Assembly (NCBI GenBank): GCA_031282425.1
Contig: JAITDT010000016.1
Location: 1-41,647, forward strand
Direction: 5' to 3'
DNA length: 41,647 bases
DNA from: Holosporaceae bacterium
GTDB lineage: Bacteria; Pseudomonadota; Alphaproteobacteria; UBA3830
The notes beneath the pieces are model-generated. The model saw only the letters and a list, made by a program, of their open reading frames with translations, ran no database searches and was not told the origin of the DNA. The translations under genes and the position numbers were made by a program. The first letter of the stretch is position 1; the number at the start of each line of letters is the position of its first letter. Below are positions 3,835 through 15,909 of the stretch, piece after piece.

Positions 3835-4351
3835 ACGCTTGCGGCAACTTGCGTTGTTTCATTTTTTTATAATGGCAGAATTAGCTGGCCCTATGCACCA
3901 CATTCTTGCCGATATTTCAGCAGTCGTTACACATTCCGCACCAATAGGTTCTCTAAACCGTAGTCCACAGACCTTTCACATTAAATGGGGATTTCTGTTG
4001 CCCGGCTCCCCAGACCGCGTCTACTCTAACTAGGCAAACTTGGCAATGGCCTCATTTTCAAAGTTATCGTTGCATGCGACAAAATTATCGTTCGCATTTA
4101 TATTTTCGGTTCTATAACGGAAACCATACCGAGTGAAAATCATGCTTTTCAACGTGCGTCGAATCTATTCATCCCCTCAAAATGGTGGAGATGTCGGGCT
4201 CTGCCCCCGAGTCCGCAGCGCCTATTAATCACAATGTTTATCACCATAGTTGCTAAAACAACGACTATATTATACAATACAAAATATTAAAAAACACTTA
4301 AATATATTGGATCTGATTGCCAGAGGTACTTAAATTTTTTCGATCGTCGAT

Positions 4352-13704: not shown

Positions 13705-14070
13705 TTGAAAAAGAGTTTTAGAATCAGAAGGCGAGCCGACTTTGTTAGAGTATCGCAGCAGGGTTTTTATTGGCGGACGAATTCTGTAGTCGTGCAATGC
13801 TGTTTTAATAATTTGAACACATACAGAGTTGGGGTAACAGCCTCCAAAAGGGTTGGCAACGCGGTAGTTCGCAATCGCTGCAAGCGCAGAATCCGAGCCG
13901 TTGCTGACGCAATCCTTGACGGCTTAGCTATTGTGGGTGTCGATTATGTTTTCATTGCAAGAAGATCGACTTACAATGTTAAATGGGCGTTGCTGATAGA
14001 GGATACAATCTCCTCCATACGGTTCTTGAACAATAGAGTCTTGAAATGCAAAAGCTTTTGTCGCTTTTAA
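13705..14070 (+). CDS. rnpA: ribonuclease P protein component
   Basis: RIRRRADFVRVSQQG...RVGVTASKRVGNAVVRNRCKRRIRAV; TTG start; follows rpmH. Confidence 0.92.
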   Translation: MKKSFRIRRRADFVRVSQQGFYWRTNSVVVQCCFNNLNTYRVGVTASKRVGNAVVRNRCKRRIRAVADAILDGLAIVGVDYVFIARRSTYNVKWALLIEDTISSIRFLNNRVLKCKSFCRF

Positions 14071-14252
14071 TTCGTATTTATCAAAAAACATTATCCTGTT
14101 ATCTGAAATCCCAATGCAAGTTTTATCCCACTTGTTCAGAGTACGCGCTCCTATCCATAAGAAAATACGGCGCGTTGCGGGGAAGTCTTAAAGCTGTATC
14201 CCGCCTTGCGCGCTGCAACCCATTTTTCCGAGGAAATGTAGATTTTCCATAA
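14046..14252 (+). CDS. yidD: membrane protein insertion efficiency factor YidD
   Basis: LIRIYQKTLSCYLKSQCKFYPTCSEYALLSIRKYGALRGSLKAVSRLARCNPF; overlaps rnpA 3' end. Confidence 0.92.
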   Translation: MQKLLSLLIRIYQKTLSCYLKSQCKFYPTCSEYALLSIRKYGALRGSLKAVSRLARCNPFFRGNVDFP

Positions 14253-14371: not shown

Positions 14372-15115
14372 ATGGATTTTTTGCATAATCTTGCGAAAGT
14401 AACAAAAGAATTAAATGGGCTTTCTGTGGTAAAGGCGCTTAATCGTGCAATACGAAAGATTTCGGCGTGTACGCATCATTTCCAACATATCATCGAATGG
14501 GAAACTGCCCCCCCCCCCCCTCCTGAATGGTACGATCACTTTCTTAATCAGCATTGGAATTGGGCAGGCGGCATGCCTTGGGAGAGAGGGTTTTTCTCGG
14601 CGTTAGCACTTAAAAAAGGAGGACGAGCTCTTGAATTGTGCTGTGGTGACGGATTTAACGCGCATAATTTCTATGCCGACCATCTAAGTAAAATAGTAGC
14701 GGTTGATTTTGATGAGTTGGCCATCAAACATGCGAAAAAAAATTTTGTTAACCCGAAAATAAGCTACGAAGTTTGCGATATAAGAACTTCGCTTCCTTCC
14801 GGACTATTTGATAACATAATCTGGGATGGTGCGATTGAGCATTTCACTGAAGCAGAAATTGCGAAGCTCATTGCTAATATCAAAAAATGCCTTACAAGAG
14901 ACGGAATTTTATCCGGTTATACTATCGTAGAAAAGCCCGATGGAACAAAGTCGCATCATGAACATGAGTATGAGTTTTCTTCTAAAGAGGATTTAAAAAG
15001 ATTTTTTTCTCCGCATTTTAAAAGAGTACAAATCTTTGAAACATTTTCTTCGGATCGTCACAATTTATATTTTTACGCATCGAACAGAACTCATCTTCCT
15101 CTTGATTCCGATTAA
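14372..15115 (+). CDS. class I SAM-dependent methyltransferase
   Basis: ALELCCGDGFNAHNFYADHLSKIVAVDFDELAIKHAKK SAM-binding motifs; contains a 13-C homopolymer. Confidence 0.8.
   Translation: MDFLHNLAKVTKELNGLSVVKALNRAIRKISACTHHFQHIIEWETAPPPPPEWYDHFLNQHWNWAGGMPWERGFFSALALKKGGRALELCCGDGFNAHNFYADHLSKIVAVDFDELAIKHAKKNFVNPKISYEVCDIRTSLPSGLFDNIIWDGAIEHFTEAEIAKLIANIKKCLTRDGILSGYTIVEKPDGTKSHHEHEYEFSSKEDLKRFFSPHFKRVQIFETFSSDRHNLYFYASNRTHLPLDSD
14508..14520 (+). repeat. 13-nt poly-C tract inside the methyltransferase coding sequence
   Basis: Direct read: GAAACTG CCCCCCCCCCCCC TCCTGAATGG, encoding APPPPPEW. Confidence 0.9.
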
Positions 15116-15150: not shown

Positions 15151-15909
15151 TTACAGTTTCTCATCTGCATGAGGGAAGTTATAATCAGAAAAACTTTCTC
15201 CGAGGTAAATTTTACGAGCAACCTCGCTATTTATTATTTCCGCTGAGTTGCCTTCTACCAAAATCTTTCCATTGAATAATATATATACATGATCCGCCAA
15301 TGGAATGGCCTCTCGAACATTGTGATCCGTGATAACCACGCCTATTCCCATTTTTTTGAGGTTAAAAATCATATTTTTCATTTCTTTGATGGCCAGTGGA
15401 TCGATCCCAGCAAGCGGCTCGTCCAATAAAATAAAACTGGGATTTGTCGCCAACAATCGAGCTATTTCCAATTTGCGTCTTTCACCGCCAGAAACGCTTA
15501 ACGCCGGTGATTTTCGAATATCCATCAAAGATAAATCATGCAGAAGCTTTTCCACAATCGCGTGTCTTTTTTTAGCGCCAATTTTTCTATTCTCAAGAAT
15601 CGCATAGATATTTTCTTCCACCGTTAAGCCGCGAAAAATGGATGATTCTTGCGGCAGATATCCAATGCCCAGGCGCGCGCGTTTATACATAGGGAGATTC
15701 GTTATTTCTTTCTGATCCAGATATATATGACCGGAATCCGGTTTTATCAACCCGCACAGCACAGCAAACGTCGTTGTTTTTCCAGCACCATTAGGGCCCA
15801 GTAGAGCTGTGATATTTCCTCTGAACGCTGTGAAGCTTATGTCATTTAAAACAACGCGTCCATCTAAGGTCTTTTTTAGGTTTTGGCAGGCAATTTTCTC
15901 AGTAGTCAT
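15151..15909 (-). CDS. lptB: LPS export ABC transporter ATP-binding protein
   Basis: LLGPNGAGKTTTFAVLCGL, LSVSGGERRKLEIARLLA, FILLDEPLAGIDPLA, VVITDHNVREA. Confidence 0.93.
   Translation of the reverse strand: MTTEKIACQNLKKTLDGRVVLNDISFTAFRGNITALLGPNGAGKTTTFAVLCGLIKPDSGHIYLDQKEITNLPMYKRARLGIGYLPQESSIFRGLTVEENIYAILENRKIGAKKRHAIVEKLLHDLSLMDIRKSPALSVSGGERRKLEIARLLATNPSFILLDEPLAGIDPLAIKEMKNMIFNLKKMGIGVVITDHNVREAIPLADHVYILFNGKILVEGNSAEIINSEVARKIYLGESFSDYNFPHADEKL

Follow-up and report, generated by a model that had tools for sequence, protein, structure and literature searches.

A poly-C tract in a methyltransferase gene as a candidate phase-variation switch in a Holosporaceae bacterium with many poly-G/C tracts

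Slipped-strand mispairing at homopolymeric runs is an established mechanism in Campylobacter and Neisseria, and poly-G/C contingency loci have been described chiefly in host-associated pathogens and commensals that are in culture. In an uncultured Holosporaceae bacterium (Alphaproteobacteria) 13 consecutive cytosines (C13) lie within the coding sequence of a methyltransferase gene, which raises the question of whether this tract is a translational switch of the same kind or an accident of sequence. The question was addressed in the window (the whole 41,647-nt stretch of DNA that was analysed), in the genome to which it belongs (G000; 968,650 bases, 67 contigs, 94% complete) and in related genomes.

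The poly-C tract and the reading frame of the methyltransferase gene

A run scan found C13 exactly where the first-pass annotation had placed it (Table 1), with the flanks gaaactg-C13-tcctgaatgg. No other C/G run in the window reaches 6 nt, and A/T runs there are 9 nt at most. In this sequence of 41.4% G+C, an order-1 Markov model predicts 8.6e-5 C/G runs of at least 13 nt per window, in agreement with the earlier statement that the tract is improbable by chance; a homopolymer so far beyond chance within a reading frame is a mark of contingency loci. Counted from the ATG, C13 begins at the second base of codon 46 (GCC, Ala) and ends at the second base of codon 50, so the annotated in-frame position stands and the annotated codons, 47–51, do not. 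The latter are the five prolines 47–51, the final one of which (CCT) falls outside the run.

The gene was correctly named a SAM methyltransferase, as the Pfam families Methyltransf_25, 11, 31 and 12 all match the ORF above their cut-offs, with Methyltransf_25 scoring 48 bits (cut-off 27), as expected of a class I SAM-dependent enzyme. The solved structures related to the protein are distant methyltransferases only. The tract is near the 5′ end of the gene, ahead of the entire catalytic domain. When tract lengths of 9–17 were simulated, C10, C13 and C16 gave the full-length product, C11, C14 and C17 a stop at 50–52 amino acids, and C9, C12 and C15 a stop at 76–78 amino acids. Truncation after about 50 residues, as first proposed, is therefore correct for one of the out-of-frame classes and too short for the other; in silico, both of these two length classes out of three end before the domain, such that the product would be lost on gain or loss of repeat units.

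Table 1 Features of the window and copies of the Flp-pilin-like family in the genome.
Feature	Position	Strand	Basis or remark
yidD, conserved upstream neighbour, after rpmH and rnpA	14046..14252	+	matches in 9/11 genus relatives
SAM-dependent methyltransferase gene, 247 aa, full length with C13	14372..15115	+	ORF; Pfam; homologues 41–58% identical
N-terminal segment, translated in all tract states	14372..14507	+	translation with tract lengths 9–17
C13 homopolymer, proposed slipped-strand switch	14508..14520	+	codons 46–50; run scan of window
Methyltransferase domain, residues 87–178, absent in out-of-frame states	14630..14905	+	Pfam match; frame simulation
ABC ATPase, LptB-like, convergent downstream neighbour	15151..15909	-	ORF; family by inspection
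Flp-pilin-like copies in G000	C14:41493, C46:21081, C45:52, C45:27457, C12:529, C58:239, C60:6592, C18:14090, C4:7437, C9:940, C14:38594		loci within L061–L092

Poly-G/C tracts across the genome

The genome contains 54 C/G runs of at least 8 nt, which rules out C13 as an isolated accident, and 51 of at least 9 nt, where about 1.07 per genome are expected. In the 342 kb around the tracts, the number of C/G runs falls from 549 at 4 nt to 2 at 7 nt and then climbs again to 17 at 12 nt, a second mode which shows that long runs are generated or maintained. A/T runs in the same 342 kb decay steadily with length, with no second mode and no excess. Across the related genomes of the order, the number of tracts of at least 9 nt ranges from 0 to 66 per genome.

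Only 16 of the 54 tracts fall within called genes, so the process that generates the runs is not confined to switch genes, which counts against the switch reading. It is what would be expected if a bias of the polymerase or of repair lengthened C/G runs anywhere, in which case the window tract would be a tolerated or decaying accident that still slips. Tracts within a transposase-like repeat, and intergenic tracts that show no promoter pattern, fit such neutral expansion as well. A role of the intergenic tracts as sigma-70 spacers, i.e. as transcriptional switches, was unsupported, since a −10-like hexamer (at least 5/6 positions, within 30 nt) occurred in 9 of 36 flanks against a control rate of 0.246. 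By eye, G tracts were also seen upstream of tRNA-like genes at C26:18209 (L077), where a TATAAT hexamer follows 7 nt past the tract, and at C65:39537 (L093). The transposase-like repeat, recognised by inspection, has two copies whose identically placed tracts are G9 and G10 (C19:594, L074, and C39:15204, L079), such that homologous tracts differ in length inside one genome.

The coding tracts, by contrast with what neutral expansion would predict, concentrate in glycan-modifying genes. Outside the pilin-like family described below, coding genes hold about 17 tracts, mostly in methyltransferases, PIG-L deacetylases and other glycan-type enzymes. Methyltransferases identified by Pfam are the window gene, C14:33866 and C40:8105, with a match at C48:5110 that falls below cut-off because the search covered half of the gene and weak matches at C59:7769 and C6:23642; the remaining assignments include FkbM (C17:6757), two PIG-L deacetylases, a formyltransferase, an ATP-grasp protein, a GNAT protein, a GT2 glycosyltransferase and a B12-binding radical-SAM protein. 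Methyltransf_11 has 11 matches in the genome, of which three are in tract genes (3/17 versus 8/about 760, the latter total being estimated from gene density; p about 0.001). Among 120 tract-free genes, no Methyltransf family is found in the families with two or more members, a control that sets a bound, single-member families lying outside it. A set of repeat-bearing genes biased towards surface or host interaction is a further mark of contingency loci, and the methyltransferase of the window may likewise modify a surface glycan, if its methyl acceptor is not a lipid or small molecule.

Both frame states occur within this genome. The window gene, C14:33866, C17:6757, C48:1064, C56:3218 and C59:7769 are in frame at the tract, and C40:8105, C41:16849, C48:3818 and C48:5110 are frameshifted exactly at the tract and otherwise open, unlike the old pseudogenes that neutral decay would leave.

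A Flp-pilin-like family (Table 1), expanded in this genome only, has about a dozen further tracts in its leader. Its members consist of a short conserved leader (MRLFAKISDFLT and variants), a G tract and a prepilin-like segment (KKSSGATLVESALVVALVVIAAIGGLGYLG), which is weakly similar to Flp/Fap, with scores below the Pfam cut-off; past the leader and the G tract, KKSSGATLVESALVVALV is followed by long divergent C-termini. The prepilin-like segment has 11 matches in its own genome and none to three in relatives, in short ORFs. Each copy whose 5′ region was seen has a G tract of 10–17. By inspection, C46:21081 and C4:7437 are in frame, and C14:41493, C45:27457, C18:14090 and C60:6592 are out of frame.

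The tracts cannot be put down to lost mismatch repair, because MutS and MutL are intact in this genome and present in nearly all others of the order. In other species these proteins lower homopolymer slippage, and their integrity here is counted against the switch reading.

Orthologous tracts in related genomes and the switch reading

Three genomes of a sister family in the order (G037, G040 and G042; L137–L150) have equally dense tracts in glycan-type genes, and the same genes retain their tracts in different species, some with an open and some with a closed frame, which is not expected of neutral expansion. In the order G037, G040 and G042, the tract lengths are 10, 12 and 10 in a methyltransferase-like gene (ON, OFF, ON), 14, 16 and 11 in a PglD-like acyltransferase gene (OFF, ON, ON), and 14, 13 and 9 in a formyltransferase gene (ON, OFF, OFF), the G042 copy of which is poorly aligned upstream. 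Three genes were compared in G037 and G040 only: a C-methyltransferase with tracts of 12 in both and flanks one base apart (OFF, ON), a nucleotide-sugar dehydratase-like gene with tracts of 12 in both (ON, ON), and a gene of 470 amino acids with tracts of 13 and 11 (ON, ON). As judged from the assemblies, this pattern is what slipping tracts selected for re-opening would leave, and it speaks for the system and not for the window locus.

The poly-C tract of the window is best read as a translational phase-variation (contingency) switch operating by slipped-strand mispairing, to which we assign a probability of roughly 0.8. The reading rests on four observations that a contingency locus would predict, namely that the tract is not alone, that tracts lie in surface-modification genes, that both frame states occur and that orthologous tract lengths differ. 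The last was borne out in the relatives and not at the window gene, because no orthologue of the latter exists among 49 further genomes of the order. Replication would add or remove Cs by slipped-strand mispairing, and one length class in three (10, 13, 16) would yield the full-length methyltransferase with 4 to 6 prolines in its N-terminal segment, while the other two would place a stop ahead of the catalytic domain. The window tract would be expected to slip at a high rate in vivo. With the whole set of switches, comprising the glycan-modifying enzymes and the Flp-pilin-like family, surface structures would vary within a population.

Weighed against the retention of the tracts between species, the concentration in glycan-modifying genes and the otherwise open out-of-frame genes, neutral expansion appears an unlikely account of the window tract. 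Considerably less probable is slippage by RNA polymerase or the ribosome, which would give a mixture of products from a single DNA length, such that the tract would set the dose of the enzyme and not a heritable on/off state. Transcriptional homopolymer slippage is known from reduced genomes, and frameshifted copies that are otherwise intact would be expected if they were still partly read. The known cases, however, are mostly at A/T runs, which are not in excess here, and the tract lengths of the orthologues differ in the DNA itself, with a change of frame. An assembly or sequencing artefact is hardly credible: the assembly is fragmented and several tracts are near contig ends, but the window tract is 14.5 kb inside its contig, the frame and the homology extend past it in both directions, and separate genomes of different species share orthologous tracts.

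The closest known parallel is the phasome of Campylobacter, where a PhasomeIt survey found that 91% of repeats were poly-G/C, with a length peak at 9–10 and 5–81 phase-variable genes per strain (PMC6321876). Both systems have poly-G/C tracts of about 8–13 inside genes of a small genome, and the Campylobacter G-tract genes, which include SAM methyltransferases, formyl transferase, ATP-grasp and radical-SAM proteins, closely match in class those with tracts here (PMC6321876). The two differ in that Campylobacter belongs to another class of bacteria and has its mode at 9–10 compared with 12 here (PMC6321876), and the present set stands apart in the presence of MutS and MutL and of a pilin-like paralogue family with leader tracts. 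The account of Neisseria meningitidis (PMC5084427) describes many genes controlled by simple sequence repeats with reversible frame changes, which resembles the present set; switching there was validated by deep sequencing, whereas here it is proposed from the comparison of assembled sequences.

The genome-wide setting is of more interest than the single locus. The taxon and the tract density appear to be new, the mechanism already being known; a limited literature search found no homopolymer phasome in Alphaproteobacteria, which is weak evidence of novelty. By a narrow balance we favour the proposal that reduced-genome, uncultured alphaproteobacteria with MutS and MutL run a poly-G/C phasome, dense at about 50 tracts per Mb, in which glycan enzymes and a multi-copy Flp-pilin-like family are switched together to give combinatorial surface variation, and that this phasome has been gained or lost repeatedly in the order. 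So dense a set in an uncultured alphaproteobacterium of about 1 Mb that keeps MutS and MutL suggests selection for surface variation by hosts, phages or predators. An order in which species range from no tracts to 66 offers a place to study how a phasome originates, and metagenome reads would allow a test that needs no culture.

Origin of the methyltransferase gene and its surroundings

Homologues of the window methyltransferase were found in another alphaproteobacterium (L104), on an IMG/VR contig (L135), in a betaproteobacterium (L099) and on a plasmid of Azospirillum sp. TSH58 (WP_109469317.1; L136). The L099 contig carries the C-terminal part only and the tract site was compared in the other three, whose proteins belong to the same family as the window protein across most of their length. 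Unlike the window gene, their DNA has no C run at this site, where the residues are WGVDPKPEW (L104), WGVHPNPEW (L135) and WSIPPAPEW (L136), and, aligned with L104 and L135, the protein of the window is longer by two residues exactly at the tract. The C-run-free homologues and the two extra residues suggest that C13 arose by expansion in this lineage, at a point where the protein tolerates additional prolines. The Azospirillum copy is near genes for a glycosyltransferase, a DegT-type aminotransferase and an epimerase. The L135 protein, 47% identical to that of the window, is encoded on a contig listed as viral.

Among 49 other genomes of the order no orthologue of the window gene was found in which tract length could be compared, and among 385 genomes of the class there was one good match besides the gene itself; from this distribution the gene was probably acquired laterally. 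A comparison with an empty site at yidD was attempted within the genus, but the relatives have differing genes after yidD and gave no clean empty site. The genes rpmH and rnpA, which precede yidD, were named from reading the sequence. Another copy of yidD, broken by in-frame stops, is present at C14:50241-50416 of the same genome (L197, L198), about 1 kb from a G14 tract at C14:51274. Elsewhere in the window, positions 3939-4301 of the minus strand encode a tmRNA of the alphaproteobacterial type, which the permuted tmRNA model also matches.
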